This document shows, one piece after another, positions 5,525 to 42,008 of a stretch of DNA of 43,736 nucleotides. The notes below the pieces were generated by a model that ran no database searches, was not told where the DNA came from, and was given only the letters and a program-made list of their open reading frames with translations. The translations under genes and the position numbers were made by a program. Source of the stretch: Tannerellaceae bacterium (GTDB lineage: Bacteria > Bacteroidota > Bacteroidia > Bacteroidales > Tannerellaceae). Every line of letters starts with the position of its first letter. Position 1 is the stretch's first letter. The stretch spans positions 1 to 43,736 of the forward strand of contig JAISWO010000008.1 of the NCBI GenBank assembly GCA_031271045.1, written 5' to 3'.

Positions 5525-5548
5525 ACAAACCATACAAATAATAATGCT

Positions 5549-5639
5549 GCACACGATCGTTGTGTAGCATTGCACACGATCGTTGTGTAGCGTTGCACAC
5601 GATCGTTGTGCAGCGTTGCACAACAACGTTGTGCAATTC
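5549..5639. repeat. 23-bp palindromic repeat array (four units)
   Basis: Units begin at 5549, 5572, 5595 and 5618. The first three are nearly identical (GCACACGATCGTTGTG, then a variable tail); the fourth (GCACAACAACGTTGTGC) is diverged but remains palindromic. Each contains GCACA...TGTGC around CGATCG or AACGTT. The array lies between the sigma gene and the dinB promoter. It could be an operator cluster or a repeat of the same class as the other arrays in this window. Confidence 0.8.
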
Positions 5640-29951: not shown

Positions 29952-30076
29952 CGCATGTTTTCCAACTCTTTTGCATGATTCGCTTTAAAAAAATGTAATT
30001 ATCCCCCGTTCTGTTTTGGGTTGCTTTTTTTACGGTTTGGGCTTTTTGTACGAAGCGTTGTGAAGATTTATTTGAA

Positions 30077-30422
30077 TATGGACCCTCCTGCAACTTGCAG
30101 GGGGAAATATATTCCAGTATGGACCCTCCTGCAACTTGCAGGGGGAAATATATTCCAGTATGGATGCTCCTGCAACTTGCAGGGAGAAATATATTCCAGT
30201 ATGGATGCTCCTGCAACTTGCAGGGGGAAATATATTCCAGTATGGATGCTCCTGCAAGTTGCAGGGGGAAATATATTCCAGTATGGACCCTCCTGCAACT
30301 TGCAGGGGGAAATATATTCCAGTATGGACCCTCCTGCAACTTGCAGGGGGAAATATATTCCAGTATGGACCCTCCTGCAAGTTGCAGGGGGAAATATATT
30401 CCAGTATGGATGCTCCTGCAAA
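30077..30422. repeat. 41-bp tandem repeat array (eight units plus a partial)
   Basis: Units start every 41 bp from 30077 to 30405. Each holds the palindrome CCTGCAAsTTGCAGG, where s is C in units 1-4, 6 and 7 and G in units 5 and 8, so those two are the reverse complement of the others at that site. A second imperfect dyad is GGAAATATATTCC. A second variable site is ACCC or ATGC before the palindrome. The unit has no stop codon in any of six frames, so long apparent reading frames across it are artefacts of the repeat. It lies between the gapA and tcdA promoters. Confidence 0.95.
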
Positions 30423-36083: not shown

Positions 36084-37265
36084 ATGGCAAGAATAAACCT
36101 TCTTTATATGACAGCCTGCCTGCTTGCGGCAACCATCACCTCCTCGCAAGCACAAACGGACAAAGAACACTTTGCTCCCATCAACACAGCCGTCCCCTCC
36201 CTCTCCATCGCGCCCGACGCCCGGGGCGGCGCTATGGGCGACAACGGGGTAGCCTCCATGCCCGACATCGCCTCCCAATACTGGAACCCGGCCAAATATG
36301 CCTTCCATTACAGCAACGCAGGCATCGGACTCTCCTACACACCCTGGCTGCGGCGCTTAGTCAACGACGTAGCCCTGGCCTATCTGTCGGGCTTCTATAA
36401 GATAGGGCAGAACGACAACCAGGCCTTCAGCGCCTCCCTCCGCTATTTCACCCTGGGCGAAATACAGCAGACAGCCCAGTATGAAACCATCCCCTACAAT
36501 CGCCTGAACCCATACGAAATGGCCATAGACGTGAGCTACAGCCGCAAACTGTCGGAGCTCTACTCCATGGCCGTCACCGCCCGTTACATCCGTTCCGACA
36601 TGAGCGACCAAAGCGACGAGATGGTACCCGGCAACTCAGTCGCCGCCGATGTCTCCGGCTATCTCGAAAAATACGTCATCCTGGGCAATACAGAAAGCCT
36701 CTGGACCTTCGGCTTCAATGTATCCAACATCGGAACCAAAATCTCGTACGACGGAGGAACAACCAACGACTTTATCCCCACCCTGCTGAAAATTGGTACC
36801 GGACTGCTCTACCCGCTCGACGATTACAACCGCATAGGCTTCTACGCCGACCTGGGCAAGTTCCTCGTCCCCAGCCTGCCCAAGAGCAGGGGAAACACCG
36901 AAGAAGATCAAGCCGAATACGAACGCTTGAAAGAGAAATACAACACCATGTCGTTCATGACCGGAATCTTCACCTCCTTCTCTGATGCACCGGGCGGCTT
37001 CAACGAAGAATTGAAAGAAATCAACCTCTCGTTCGGAGCCGAATACAGCTACAACGACCAGTTCTTCCTCCGCGGCGGTTATTACTACGAAAACCCCTAC
37101 AAGGGTAACCGCCAGTATTTCTCGCTCGGCGCCGGCTTCCGTATGAGCGTCTTCCAGTTAGACGCCGCCTACCTGATCAGCACCGTCCCCAGCAATCCGC
37201 TGGACCAAACTTTGCGCTTCTCCCTCTCCTTCGATATGGACGGCATCAAAAATCTCTTCCGTTAA
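36084..37265 (+). CDS. porV: PorV (LptO), type IX secretion outer-membrane barrel
   Basis: The 393-residue protein has a signal peptide (NLLYMTACLLAATITSSQAQ) and a FadL-like beta-barrel. It has the conserved early segment PSLSIAPDARGGAMGDNGVA, then SQYWNPAKYAF, and ends in an aromatic-rich strand (TLRFSLSFDMDGIKNLFR). PorV binds cargo at the translocon and hands it to PorU. The gap after porU is 55 bp, and its stop shares one base with the ispF start (TAATG). Confidence 0.95.
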   Translation: MARINLLYMTACLLAATITSSQAQTDKEHFAPINTAVPSLSIAPDARGGAMGDNGVASMPDIASQYWNPAKYAFHYSNAGIGLSYTPWLRRLVNDVALAYLSGFYKIGQNDNQAFSASLRYFTLGEIQQTAQYETIPYNRLNPYEMAIDVSYSRKLSELYSMAVTARYIRSDMSDQSDEMVPGNSVAADVSGYLEKYVILGNTESLWTFGFNVSNIGTKISYDGGTTNDFIPTLLKIGTGLLYPLDDYNRIGFYADLGKFLVPSLPKSRGNTEEDQAEYERLKEKYNTMSFMTGIFTSFSDAPGGFNEELKEINLSFGAEYSYNDQFFLRGGYYYENPYKGNRQYFSLGAGFRMSVFQLDAAYLISTVPSNPLDQTLRFSLSFDMDGIKNLFR

Positions 37266-37756
37266 TGCAAAGCATACGCATCGGATTCGGCTATGATGTA
37301 CACGCCCTTGCACCCGACCGCGCCCTGTGGCTGGGAGGCGTCCGGATCGAACACTCGCTGGGACTCCAGGGGCATAGCGACGCCGACGTACTGATCCACG
37401 CCATCTGTGACGCCCTGCTCGGAGCCGCCGGCCTGCGCGACATAGGGTATCATTTCCCCGATACGGCGGGCCGCTACAAAGACATCGACAGCAAGATCCT
37501 CCTGCGCGAAACGATGACCCTCGTCCGCCAAGCCGGCTACGAGCTGGGCAACATCGACGCCACCGTCGCCGCCGAACAGCCCAAACTAAACCCACACATC
37601 CCCACTATGCTGGCGACCCTCGCCGCCGTCATGCAAGCCGACCCCGGCGACCTCTCCATCAAAGCCACCACCACCGAACGCTTAGGCTTCACCGGCCGCC
37701 AGGAAGGCATCGCCGCCTACGCCACTGCCCTGATCTACAAGCCCCGCCCCCACTGA
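37265..37756 (+). CDS. ispF: 2-C-methyl-D-erythritol 2,4-cyclodiphosphate synthase
   Basis: The 163-residue protein shows all IspF motifs: the metal ligands Asp and His in RIGFGYDVHAL, the third in HSDADVLIHAICDALLGAAG, and the C-terminal ATTTERLGFTGRQEGIAAYA. It closes the cyclic diphosphate in the MEP isoprenoid pathway, the route to quinones and the undecaprenyl carrier. It is translationally coupled to porV. Confidence 0.97.
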   Translation: MQSIRIGFGYDVHALAPDRALWLGGVRIEHSLGLQGHSDADVLIHAICDALLGAAGLRDIGYHFPDTAGRYKDIDSKILLRETMTLVRQAGYELGNIDATVAAEQPKLNPHIPTMLATLAAVMQADPGDLSIKATTTERLGFTGRQEGIAAYATALIYKPRPH

Positions 37757-38085
37757 CGAAAGGGAGGTTTCGGCTCCATAAAACATTCATGTAATACGAC
37801 CAGTCCAAAGAGGTTCTGTACACTCGATTGAACTCACCTTTGCAACCGACGCCCTGCGCGATACTTCCGAAGAAAATGGCGACGACGACAGCGGCGGAAC
37901 CGGTATGATAGGGGGTCCGGCGCTACAATCCTATCCATTCACCTGTACACAGGACGTTCGCCCCATATACTGACCAGGCCAGCCCCTGCCTCCTCAAAAG
38001 CGCATGTCGAGCTCCGCAGTCGCCGCTCCGGACAAGCATAAAATAATCCTGAAACAAGAAAAGACCTATTCCAATGACAACGTCC
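37757..38085. other. Intergenic stretch before the 42-bp array
   Basis: No supported gene. A plus-strand frame without start codon (about 37788-37973) reads SVHSIELTFATDALRDTSEE, then an Asp/Gly-rich segment, and stops at TGA. It could be a decayed gene end. The part from about 37975 to 38085 leads into the repeat array. Confidence 0.4.
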
Positions 38086-39660
38086 CTCAATGCGTAACAC
38101 CATCATTTGCCCCATCTTTAAGCGCCACGCAGTGTATGATGCTATCATTTGTACTGCTTTTGTCGCAACACAATGGAAGACAATAGTATTTGACCGAATC
38201 TTGATCGTTGCGCAATGCGAGATATTGCTGTTTCCTTCACCTTTAACAGTCACATAATGCGCAATAGCGTCATTTAGTCTATTTTCAACCGCAACGCATT
38301 GAGAGATACAATCATTTTCTCCATCATTGAATATCATGCAATGCAAACTATTATCGCTTGTCCTGTTTCTAATCGCAACGCAATACGCAACATCATTGTT
38401 TGCCTTATCCCTGATTGTCACACACTGTATGACGCCATCGTTTGACTTATTTTTGATTGACATACAATGCAGAACGTATCACTCGCCCTATCCCTGATAG
38501 TTGCACAATGCGAGATGCTGTCATTTGCCATATTTATAATCGCCACGCAATGCGAAACACAATCGTTTCCTCCATTCCCAATGATCACACAGTGCACGAC
38601 AACGTCGCACTTCTCCATTTTTGACATCATGCAGCATACGATACATTCATTTGCATTATTCATGATCGTTACACAATGCGTAATACTATCGTTTTTCTTG
38701 TTTTCAACCGCGACGCATTGCGAGACATCATCGTTTCATCCATCTTTGAATGTCATGCAATGTGCAACAGTATCGTTTGGCCCATTTTCGACCGTAACGC
38801 ATTGAGGGACACTGTCATTTTCTCCATCTTTAAATATCATGCAATGCAAAACATTATCGCCTGCCATATCCCTAATCGTAACGCAATGCGCAACACCATT
38901 GTTTGTTTTATTTTTGATTGTCATTCAACGCAAGACGCCATAGCTTGTCTTATATCCAATTGCCACACATTATATGATGCTATCGTTTGACCTATTCCTG
39001 ATCGCTACGCAATGCACAATACTATCATTTTTCTTGTTTCCGATCGCAACACATTGCGAGACACCATCATTCCACCCATTTTTAAACATCATGCAACGCG
39101 AAACACCAATGTCTGCCCCATCTTTGACCATTACGCACTATACGACACCATTATATTCCTCTGTTTTTACCGTCACGCATTGCGCGATACCATCATTTGC
39201 ACCATTTCAGATCGCCACATAGTGAACGACACCATCGTTTGCCCTATTTCCAACCGTCACGCAATGCGCGACACCAACGTTTGCCCCATTTTCTAACCAT
39301 CCGCAATGCGCGACACCAATGCTTGCCCTACTTTCTAACCGTCTGCAATGCACGACACCAACGTTTGCCCTGTTTTTGGCCTTCACGCACTACATGACAC
39401 CTTTGTTTTCACCGTTTTTTGCCTTTCCGCATTGCGAGAAGCCTTCATTTTCTTCACTTTTTAACAATCACGCAATACGCGAAACCCTCATTTTTCCCGC
39501 TTTTTAACAATCACGCAATGCGGACGTCGAAAAAATACAGAAAACGATGCCATCACGCAATGCAGACGCCGAAAAAACAGCGAAAACGATACCGTCACAC
39601 AATGCAGACGCCAAAAAACAAGAAAAAACGATCGGAGCACGCAATGCGCGACACCTTTTA
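38086..39660. repeat. 42-bp repeat array, about 38 units
   Basis: Units begin at the motif CGCAATGCG or its variants (TGCAATGCA, CACAATGCG, CGCATTGCG). By direct position count, 31 of 37 steps are exactly 42 bp, and the 22 units from 38546 to 39428 are all in phase. The other steps are 41 or 43 bp. The rest of the unit (ACACCATCGTTTGCCC, then a T-rich stretch) is moderately conserved. Every frame contains stops in the in-phase block, so no single protein is encoded although 14-residue periodic peptides appear in all frames. The last four units have a different, A-rich body. The array fills the gap between ispF and the DUF349 gene. Confidence 0.9.
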
Positions 39661-40034
39661 AAGAACAGAAACGAATACGTCACAATTTGTCTTATTCCAT
39701 ACTGAAGGCACACATGCAGCGACTTTTTTTAATACCAATAAAATTAATGTAACAAGAAAACAGTAAGCAAATGTATCCAACTTCTTCGCCACCTCCACAA
39801 TGGCGTCCTCAAAACAATCTTCCAAAAAGAAGACAACATCTTCACCCGCACCATCCGCGCCCCGGAAGCCCCCATCCCCCCCCCACAAAAAACCTTTCCC
39901 CAGACAACAAAGAAGCAAAATATCCCAACCTGAAAGAAAAAAACAGCATAAAATGCAGCAATCTCAAAATAATTAGCTTAATTTGTGACTTAAATAGGAT
40001 GGAGACATCCTTTCTAATTAATATGCAATCGAAT
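39661..40034 (+). other. Region between the 42-bp array and the DUF349 gene
   Basis: A possible small gene lies at 39800-39976 (58 residues, ATG to TAG), rich in Lys, Ser and Pro: MASSKQSSKKKTTSSPAPSA, then PRKPPSPPHKKP. It resembles basic tails of DNA-binding proteins but has no known domain and no clear promoter. A -7-like TTAATTTG at 39978-39985 may serve the DUF349 gene, whose reading frame stays open upstream to 39771. Confidence 0.35.
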
Positions 40035-42008
40035 ATGACGGACATTCATGAAACTGATTTACCGGTAGGAATCCCCGGTGAACCGGAAGAAACTAAGGCT
40101 CCGGCTATCACGCCGGAAAACACCCCGGAAAACATCCGGGCGGAGGAAAGTATTGTAACAGAGAAAACAACCGAGGAGGCAACAGAAGAAGCCCATGAAA
40201 CCCATGAAACAGAGGCAACCAATGAAGCAGAAAATCTGACAACAGACCCCGACGCTGACCCCGGCGATACCTCCGGAGAAACAACTCCTGTGAATAACAA
40301 TAAGCTGACAAAGGAAGAAATCCTCAAGCAACTGACAGACTTAGTAAATGCCCCAATAGAAACCACCCGCAACGAAGTGGAACTACTCAAGCAAACATTC
40401 CATAAAATTCACAAGTTTGAAGTGGACGAACTGAAAAAAAACTTCATCGAAACAGGAGGTGACGAAAAAAACTTTCGCGCACCCGAAGACGAAACAGAAG
40501 CAAAGATAAAAATCCTCTTGAACCGCTACAAAGAAAAAAAGGCCGTCTTCCTCGCCGAAGAAGAACAAAAAAAAGCAGCCAACTACGCACTCAAACTTCA
40601 ACTCGTCAGCCGCATAAAAGAATTGACCGAAAGCCAGAGCGACTTCAACAAACTGTACAACGAGTTCAAAGAAATCCAACAAAGATGGAAAGAAGCCGGA
40701 CTGGTCCCGCAGGAACACGCCAACGAACTGTGGAAAAACTACCAGACCTACACCGAACGATTCTACGACCTGATCAAAATAAACAATCAGTTCCGCGATT
40801 ACGACTTCAAAAAGAACTTGGACATGAAAACAACGCTATGCGAAGCAATGGAAAAACTGTCAACCGACAACGACACCGTATCCGCATACCATAAACTCCA
40901 AACACTGCACCAGCAATGGCGCGAGATCGGACCCGTCCCCAAAGACCTCAGAGAAGACCTCTGGGCACGCTTTAAAGGAGCATCCAATATCGTAAACAAA
41001 CGGCATCAGGAATATTTCGAAGACCGCAGAACCAAAGAACAAGACAACCTCCACGCCAAAACAGCCATCTGCGAACAACTCGAAAGCATCGACTTCTCCC
41101 AACTGAAAACCTACAAAGACTGGGAAGAAGTCAACGAAGCCGTATACGCCGCACGAGAACAATGGAAAAAACTCGGCTTTGCACCCAAAAAATACAACCA
41201 GAAAATATATGAACGCTTCCGCACCGCCTGCGACATCTATTTCGACCGGAAAGGAGAATACTTCAAGCAAGTAAAAGGAGACATGGGGAAAAACATGGAA
41301 CTCAAAAAAGCCCTGTGCGAAAAAGCAGAAGCCCTCAAAAATAATACCGACTGGAAAGAAACCACCGAAAAACTAATCGCCCTGCGCAAAGAATGGAAAA
41401 CAATCGGAAGCGTCCCCCGCAAACAATCCGATATCCTCTGGAAACGATTCATGACAGCATGCGATCACTTCTTCGAACAAAAAGGAAATAACTTTTCCTC
41501 CCAGAAAAACTCCGAACAAAACAACCTGGAAGCCAAAAAAGAAGTGATCGAAAAAATAAATAACCTGGACGCAACGCTCGGATACAACGAAGCCCTCAAC
41601 CTGCTCAAAGACTGCATGAGCCAGTGGAACGCTGTCGGATTCGTCCCCTTCAAAGAAAAAGACAAAATAAACGCAGAATACCGCGATGCCTTAGACAAAC
41701 AGTACGACCGCCTCAAAGTAGACCAAAGCGACCGCAAAATGCAAACCTTCCGCAGCAACCTCACCGACATCACCGGCGGAGAAAAAGGCAAAGGCAAACT
41801 CTACGGCGAACGCGACAAACTCATGAGATCCTACGAACGTATGAAAACCGAACTGCATACCTATGAAAACAACATCGGTTTCCTCAGCGTATCCTCCAAA
41901 GGCGGCAGCGGACTCGTCAAAGAAATGGAACGCAAAATCGAACAAATCAAAGAAGAAATGGCGCTTATCATCAAAAAAATAGACGCCATCGACGAAAACC
42001 TGGAATAA
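40035..42008 (+). CDS. DUF349 domain protein
   Basis: Start 40035 (MTDIHETDLPVG) gives 657 residues; 39999 and 40023 are also possible. The N-terminal 80-90 residues are acidic and Thr/Glu-rich, probably disordered. The rest consists of repeated DUF349 helical units of about 70 residues, each with a Trp-containing helix pair (EIQQRWKEAGLVP, LHQQWREIGPVPKD, AREQWKKLGFAPKK, LRKEWKTIGSVPRK, CMSQWNAVGFVPFKE), so five repeats can be counted. A C-terminal coiled coil follows. The function is unknown in Bacteroidetes. It is 1 bp from the conserved start of the next protein, suggesting coupling. Confidence 0.85.
   Translation: MTDIHETDLPVGIPGEPEETKAPAITPENTPENIRAEESIVTEKTTEEATEEAHETHETEATNEAENLTTDPDADPGDTSGETTPVNNNKLTKEEILKQLTDLVNAPIETTRNEVELLKQTFHKIHKFEVDELKKNFIETGGDEKNFRAPEDETEAKIKILLNRYKEKKAVFLAEEEQKKAANYALKLQLVSRIKELTESQSDFNKLYNEFKEIQQRWKEAGLVPQEHANELWKNYQTYTERFYDLIKINNQFRDYDFKKNLDMKTTLCEAMEKLSTDNDTVSAYHKLQTLHQQWREIGPVPKDLREDLWARFKGASNIVNKRHQEYFEDRRTKEQDNLHAKTAICEQLESIDFSQLKTYKDWEEVNEAVYAAREQWKKLGFAPKKYNQKIYERFRTACDIYFDRKGEYFKQVKGDMGKNMELKKALCEKAEALKNNTDWKETTEKLIALRKEWKTIGSVPRKQSDILWKRFMTACDHFFEQKGNNFSSQKNSEQNNLEAKKEVIEKINNLDATLGYNEALNLLKDCMSQWNAVGFVPFKEKDKINAEYRDALDKQYDRLKVDQSDRKMQTFRSNLTDITGGEKGKGKLYGERDKLMRSYERMKTELHTYENNIGFLSVSSKGGSGLVKEMERKIEQIKEEMALIIKKIDAIDENLE

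Follow-up and report, generated by a model that had tools for sequence, protein, structure and literature searches.

The window, a stretch of 43,736 nucleotides that represents contig C28 of a Tannerellaceae genome assembly (2.79 Mb, 74 contigs, 88.5% complete), contains a long tandem array between ispF (37265-37756, plus strand; YgbB family, PF02542, E 1.8e-67) and an ORF for a DUF349 protein (39771-42008, plus strand). Counting along this interval gave 38 cores with starts from 38087 to 39641, which confirms that the roughly 38 phase-locked 42-bp units described in an earlier note on this DNA form a real array. The core-to-core step is 42 bp in 33 of 37 cases, 41 bp in two and 43 bp in two, and the longest run in perfect phase comprises 23 cores; the phasing thus stands, but the former counts (31 of 37 steps, 22 units) had to be corrected upwards. 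The direct part of the array (38087-39514, plus strand) consists of about 34 units of 42 bp with the core consensus CGCAATGCG and a spacer of roughly GACACCATCGTTTGCCCCATTTTTGATCGTCA. Unit comparison revealed that the spacer orientation is reversed in the terminal units (39515-39655, minus strand), with the cores still on the 42-bp pitch. The self-match at a shift of 42 is 0.55 over 38086-39660 and the TRF score is 731; no TRF row with a score of at least 100 was obtained in 200 shuffled sequences (40 DUF6261 loci with five shuffles each).

Units of the window array are 68% identical to their consensus (456 departures in 1428 positions, comprising 296 transitions and 160 transversions). Consensus C and G have departed more frequently (0.38 and 0.40) than A and T (0.20 and 0.27), which looks like mutational decay towards A+T. 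Adjacent units match at 58%, the lowest value among intergenic arrays of this genome scored at 150 or more. In neutral sequence, indels amount to about 5-10% of substitutions. Because only 4 of the 37 steps have changed length as against 456 departures, which is few against this share, spacing seems to have been held while the sequence drifted. The core itself is not clearly protected in this copy, since the contrast between core and remaining positions, a check that had been proposed with the earlier note, is not significant (1.05 vs 0.84 bits, p = 0.15). The dyad that core variants were said often to keep is indeed present in the consensus, but covariation between its paired positions in this decayed copy does not exceed that of column shuffles (lowest p 0.059).

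It had also been claimed that no frame stays open. This is correct for the whole block, but within a block of 22 units, picked for being in phase, three of the six frames are nearly open (4, 4 and 6 stops in 307 codons). Adjacent units of this block differ at 360 places. With a transition weight of 1, dN/dS by frame was 0.59-0.83; a weight of 3 gave 0.75-1.15 and a weight of 5 gave 0.82-1.30, with 0.59, 0.75 and 0.82 for frame +1. Given this weakly lowest dN/dS and four stops, frame +1 was not taken as coding. A role as terminator array is likewise unsupported, with one terminator site as compared to 2.0 in shuffles; the promoter scan gave 7 sites vs 4.4 in shuffles. The region where plus and minus units face each other (39160-39680) has an RNA fold with a z of -4.0, equalled by none of 100 shuffles, and there may be an RNA hairpin at this switch of orientation; z is -1.2 for 38060-39000. 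No Rfam match at the gathering score was obtained for five array loci.

Directly 3′ of the array, a remnant of a DUF6261 gene was detected (39740-39867, plus strand; tblastn E 3e-7). It covers about the first 67 codons with an internal gap of 28 codons and can be aligned by blastn to the intact DUF6261 locus L014/L050 (58 bp at 84% and 66 bp at 74%), being closest to L050. The remnant is fused in frame to DUF349, so that the first 84 codons of the DUF349 ORF come from remnant and spacer, and the natural start is probably the ATG at 40023. The remaining part of the DUF6261 gene was not found within the window. On the other side of the array, a 37-bp segment (38024-38060, plus strand) is 86% identical to the 5′ flank of L014/L050, and the window array itself matches the array of the intact L050 locus (67% over 228 bp, E 5e-25). 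Because the 5′ part of the gene persists directly 3′ of the array, the window array is best read as the relic of a DUF6261 array locus. Its partner is DUF6261, neither ispF nor DUF349. The second check proposed with the earlier note was a search for an array at this place in related genomes, whose absence there, together with equal variation of core and body, had been named as refuting. At 30 relative DUF349 loci, no array of 41-43 bp was seen within the 2 kb that precede the DUF349 match (less than 2 kb of sequence was available for seven of these loci). Thus, the position at DUF349 is not conserved but the array class is. Relatives of the DUF349 gene are from Tannerellaceae, Parabacteroides and Tannerella records. 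One of the metagenome-assembled genomes, Ncb351_bin13 (JAISZY records), has two different DUF349 loci (L016, L021), each 68% identical to the query, and may be a mixed bin or contain two DUF349 copies.

Searches with the array itself and with a 22-letter pattern uncovered three further arrays of this sequence family in the same genome, on contigs C72 (L013), C29 (L014) and C63 (L015); the pattern gave 50 matches in this genome as compared to 2 for the reversed control. All four arrays consist of several plus units followed by several minus units, and the core pitch is 41-43 bp across the switch. L014 carries an intact DUF6261 gene (PF19775, E 1.5e-31) immediately 3′ of its array. The pattern was also applied to 117 other genomes (17 from the same genus), each of which gave 0 to 15 matches, in many cases slightly more than its own control, but none has an array of this unit among the matches listed. 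Four genomes were checked match by match (including G004, 10 matches vs none for the control), and only scattered single matches were seen. Judged from the matches listed, this sequence family would thus be confined to its own genome.

The window contains two more arrays. One (30062-30421) has 41-bp units with the core CCTGCAASTTGCAGG and is 92.6-94% identical to a DUF6261-linked array on contig 12, of which it is a satellite. The other (5548-5633) has 23-bp units and resembles, on the minus strand (73%, E 2e-13), an array located 3′ of a gene for a PF14848 HU-type protein on contig 25.

The association between arrays and DUF6261 proved to be general in this genome. All 40 DUF6261 (PF19775) matches were examined with their flanks, and a tandem array, called at TRF weights 2/3/5 and a score of at least 150, adjoins 38 of them (33 on the 5′ side and five on the 3′ side). 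Exceptions are L066 and L070, which have no array at this score. The 5′ arrays are located 227-509 nt before the DUF6261 domain in 32 cases and 1145 nt before it in L201. Array periods are 41-43 bp or the double or triple of this length. When arrays from this genome and from relatives are taken together, the pitch is 40.7-43.0 bp per unit in 59 of 60, the remaining one having 25 bp. In stretches of this genome read with a single ORF caller, an array is present within 500 nt on the 5′ side of 13 of 14 DUF6261 genes, as compared to 27 of 362 other genes (Fisher 4e-13); genes less than 500 nt from the end of a stretch, ORFs lying mostly in an array, and periods of 63 and 138 were dropped from this count. 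For the other genes, the count is 14 of 256 in contigs from the DUF6261 list and 13 of 106 in ten contigs without a match in that list.

The arrays are largely private to their gene, as only 7 of the 703 pairs among the 38 DUF6261 arrays are similar in sequence. Where arrays are similar, the proteins are also more alike (0.54 vs 0.23 of the self score; 0 of 5000 relabellings), so that proteins and arrays diverge together. One of these pairs, L200/L207 (0.97), includes a copy at a contig end; without it the mean is about 0.47, the permutation value being that of the full set. In many cases no more than a few hundred bases separate a PF19775 or PF14848 gene from the start of its contig. This would be expected if arrays break short-read assembly, in which case gene copy numbers would be underestimated.

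DUF6261 was found in 53 of the 118 genomes searched (own genome included), with one to at least 30 matches each. When one locus per genome was inspected, 22 of 29 relatives had a 5′ array at a score of at least 150; in one of these (L236) a 25-bp array on the 5′ side is accompanied by a 41-bp array on the 3′ side. Of the seven relatives where no array was called, five have at most 410 nt of 5′ sequence (L220, L221, L223, L228, L232), L244 has an array with a score of 104, below the threshold of 150, and L241 has none. Loci from three further families of the order (G099, G107, G111) also have an array. The complete genome G037 has at least 29 DUF6261 places, and of 20 loci examined there, 18 have a 5′ array (all except L279 and L284 at the threshold). 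Six gene pairs in G037 share arrays, three of them, among L276-L278, being 98-99% identical. For one G037 protein, a search for orthologues in 25 other genomes of the same genus gave a single match at E <= 1e-30, with 46% identity. In Prevotella nigrescens (NZ_CP082843.1), the annotated start of WP_004367630.1 falls within a palindromic array of 41-bp units (L247, 2712-2894), and the gene probably begins at a later ATG near 2965. MT837725.1, a record from a phage collection that is marked unverified and codes for a distant DUF6261 protein, has no 41-43 bp array, and five viral-contig scans did not detect DUF6261. The pairing between DUF6261 and arrays is thus widespread in Bacteroidales.

Palindromes are a frequent but not a universal property of these arrays. 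In 22 of 61 DUF6261 arrays the consensus unit is palindromic against base shuffles at p<0.05 (three expected) and in 39 it is not; for arrays with longer periods only the first 42 consensus letters were used. Where both arms of a palindrome have changed, the changes are complementary in 40 of 70 cases, compared to 44 of 240 with one arm slid (61 arrays; the reference unit was chosen for its palindrome, the other units were not). Palindrome centres number 202 in DUF6261 arrays vs 48 in shuffles, and of 147 intervals between centres, 84 are 41-42 bp and 26 are 20-22 bp. In two other Tannerellaceae (L039, 6441-7117, and L029, 1740-2170), arrays of 41-42 bp were seen in which the palindrome switches as a whole between units at constant spacing, from TTTCCGGCTTCCGGAAA to TTTCCACTTCGTGGAAA in L039; DUF6261 was not found in the stretches examined around these two arrays.

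A second class of arrays is linked to another protein family. At L217 (1218), a 23-bp array is positioned just 3′ of a gene that codes for PF14848 (HU-DNA_bdg) and DUF4469 domains. All seven PF14848 genes of this genome that exceed the cut-off have an array of 22-23 bp at the stop codon, located between 5 nt before and 41 nt after it. An eighth, weak match to PF14848 (22 bits; L214, 16580-16645, and L315) has its 22-bp array on the 5′ instead of the 3′ side. In relatives, 17 of 29 PF14848 loci have an array of 22-24 or 46 bp within 150 nt on the 3′ side at a score of at least 100, and in four more the array has a lower score or is 171 nt away; the remaining eight include three with at most 162 nt of 3′ sequence and three weak family matches. 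Counting either side of the gene, 21 of 31 PF14848-linked units are palindromic at p<0.05. No similarity was found between the C-terminal part of long DUF6261 proteins and the DUF4469 part of PF14848 proteins. Repeat length thus follows the protein family and not the sequence. Our strongest argument that the protein sets the pitch is that unit length goes with the protein family in arrays of mostly unrelated sequence. Judging by the name of PF14848, DNA binding may be the common theme of both classes.

Not all arrays are adjacent to a gene. Fourteen arrays of this genome that lack an intact DUF6261 neighbour were compared, all with a pitch of 41-42 bp or multiples thereof (those of 21, 23, 63, 138 and 194 bp did not enter the comparison), and a DUF6261-linked array is matched at E <= 1e-4 by 13 of them. 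Three of these 13, namely the window array, L013 and L015, had been found by just this similarity; without them, the count is 10 of 11. The exception, L213, has no DUF6261-linked match and is scored as a 21-bp array as well. For one DUF6261 array of G037, 46 stretches matched, at 22 places other than its own. All 20 of these places that were examined contain a scored array, which matches the master in 18 cases (L298 and L300 being the two exceptions). None has DUF6261 within about 1.5 kb on either side, although the same profile finds all 20 gene loci. The gene context could be resolved for 18 places (11 tandem, 6 divergent, 1 convergent) and is not clearly different from ordinary intergenic gaps (84 tandem, 36 divergent and 20 convergent among 140 gaps from our genome and other relatives). 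The ORF caller read 10 of the 20 G037 arrays as part of an open frame with 110 or more codons, and these frames are taken as spurious. The pattern is that of a master gene plus satellites.

We consider it rather probable that the proteins encoded next to the arrays use these as binding platforms, the window block being the relic of one such locus. A DUF6261 gene is paired with an array of about 41-43 bp units, usually on the 5′ side and usually private to the gene, and we infer that the protein binds the sequence of its own array, probably as dimers on the palindromic cores. A length of 42 bp corresponds to about four helical turns and 22-23 bp to about two. A pitch of four turns would put all cores on one face of the helix, so that a nucleoprotein platform could be built cooperatively. 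It could control the expression of the DUF6261 gene itself and, at satellite arrays, could organise the local chromosome or transcription. The two readings in the earlier note, a binding array and an old expansion that only drifts, are both supported in part. The phasing is not peculiar to this block: mostly unrelated arrays beside DUF6261 genes share a pitch of about 41-43 bp across several Bacteroidales families, as suits the first reading. The window array no longer has its gene and shows the lowest match between adjacent units, as suits the second.

Several observations speak against binding. The units without a significant palindrome, the DUF6261 genes that have no array at the threshold, have it on the 3′ side or have it far from the domain (L201), and the satellite positions, which do not differ clearly from other intergenic gaps, all count against it. 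A DNA-binding domain was not recognised in the DUF6261 proteins scanned (Pfam was searched with one protein, and NCBIfam, PADLOC and PHROGs with three). The weak off-family matches are to BrxA of PADLOC (E 0.0023, one protein) and to a phage single-strand DNA-binding family (E 0.07), and a PDB profile search gave matches at chance level, the best (E 0.045) to a designed protein. Over the first 250 residues, the median pI of 39 proteins is 6.55 and thus close to neutral. Phased arrays of sites with repeated dyads that are read by a protein encoded nearby are known from parS sites and iterons, from which our arrays differ in that one genome has dozens of different ones, each beside its own paralogue.

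The main rival, second-best among the readings but in our view unlikely, is that the arrays are mobile repeats similar to the REP/RAYT system, DUF6261 copying or spreading its own array in trans with the array at the gene as template. The 22 further places in G037 that match one gene-linked array (20 of them examined) and the gene-linked counterparts of 13 of our 14 satellites are as expected under mobility, and a similar pattern of master and satellites is reported from REP/RAYT genomes (PMC3116915). In the parts of that paper available to us, spread of the repeat aided by the protein is proposed, and further likenesses are the palindromic repeats that belong to a single-copy gene and lie on its flanks, dispersed copies of the same repeat, and co-divergence of gene and repeat (PMC3116915). 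A repeat that flanks a gene and is also dispersed in the genome, as is characteristic of REPINs, is thus encountered here, too. However, the RAYT partner is a Y1 tyrosine transposase, whereas none of the scanned DUF6261 proteins matches a transposase or nuclease, the best off-family match being that to BrxA (E 0.0023). The REPIN repeats are described as mostly singlets or inverted doublets (PMC3116915), whereas the arrays reported here are long tandems with a pitch of four turns. Copying alone leaves unexplained why unrelated sequences share the 41-43 bp pitch and why it is 22-23 bp at PF14848 genes.

Other mobile or palindromic repeats show partial resemblance. The MITE BrickBuilt of Porphyromonas gingivalis consists of intergenic tandems of imperfect 23-nt units and has 19 elements (PMC4596501). 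Its unit has the length found in the PF14848-linked class, in contrast to the 42 bp of the window unit, and it is described as one unit sequence with leader and tail and interpreted as a transposable element (PMC4596501). The passages that we could consult mention no cognate gene; as a lead only, an HU-type gene (PF00216) is listed beside BrickBuilt_14 (Table 1 of PMC4596501). GTAG- and CGTC-tagged REPs are also short extragenic palindromes, and the CGTC type is known from Bacteroidetes as well (PMC3733652). The CGTC type, though, has tagged stems of 8-9 bp and occurs mostly as dimers, with clusters being rare, and neither a tie to DUF6261 nor a 42-bp pitch appears in the passages available to us (PMC3733652).

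That the arrays are neutral minisatellites, which originated by slippage, spread by duplication and then drifted, with DUF6261 merely a frequent neighbour, is less probable still. The window array alone might be viewed in this way, as it is without its gene, its units are only 68% identical to the consensus, and its unit does not form an array in 117 other genomes among the matches listed. But neutrality does not account for a pitch that goes with the neighbouring protein family (about 41-43 bp as opposed to 22-24 or 46 bp) nor for the excess of 5′ arrays at DUF6261 genes (13 of 14 vs 27 of 362 for other genes), and even in the window the 4 of 37 steps off 42 bp, against 456 departures in 1428 positions, are below the indel share of 5-10%.

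We give very little credence to an arrangement similar to a type III toxin-antitoxin system, in which a toxin gene would be preceded by an array that represents repeat RNA. ToxIN loci are recognised by such a layout, a gene with tandem repeats directly upstream (PMC8860590), and the facing plus and minus units of the window fold as RNA better than shuffles (z -4.0). In ToxIN, according to the passages accessible to us, the repeats act as RNA and a terminator precedes the toxin (PMC8860590). In contrast, our arrays also occur 3′ of the gene (5 of 40) and at places that lack DUF6261, and their orientation inverts within an array; there was no similarity to toxin families in our scans and no Rfam match in five loci. 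A decayed coding repeat of 14 residues can practically be dismissed: 42 is a multiple of three, there are three nearly open frames and dN/dS is lowest in frame +1 whichever transition weight is used, but at weights 3 and 5 this is only 0.75-0.82 and the frame has four stops, the sister arrays switch orientation, and sibling arrays use units of 41, 43, 22 and 23 bp, which are not divisible by three.

Beyond the reading of the arrays as binding platforms, we tentatively suggest, with somewhat more doubt than confidence, that Bacteroidales carry large sets of distinct protein-array pairs. Each DUF6261 or PF14848 paralogue would read its own palindromic array at a pitch fixed by the family (four or two turns) and would seed satellites, and the pairs would turn over so fast that sister species share neither partner. 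This would amount to a self-diversifying system for chromosome organisation or competition. DUF6261, a family without assigned function that has 40 copies in this genome, gains a concrete partner in the adjoining array. The pairing would also account for a good part of the intergenic minisatellites, and for the fact that many of their unit lengths are near 22-23 and 41-43 bp. Should the proteins bind as proposed, a single cell would contain dozens of naturally distinct protein-site pairs, and chromosome organisation or selfish DNA in Bacteroidales could be viewed in a new way. The pairing is apparently new to the literature: a search for tandem palindromes and related systems, which covered titles and the beginnings of abstracts and few subscription papers, retrieved no such combination of gene and array, and in the same coverage DUF6261 is mentioned only as a table entry of one paper and DUF4469 not at all.

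Arrays with a unit of 21 bp were also observed (L128, 1-246; L133, 8455-8694; L209, 6722-6969; L212, 14310-14614; L213, 18470-18744). Eight genes from their flanks that were scanned share no Pfam family. When compared to the 41-43 bp arrays and to three 23-bp arrays, only L133 and L213 gave a match, and this was to each other. The 21-bp arrays are perhaps a further class of protein-array pairs.
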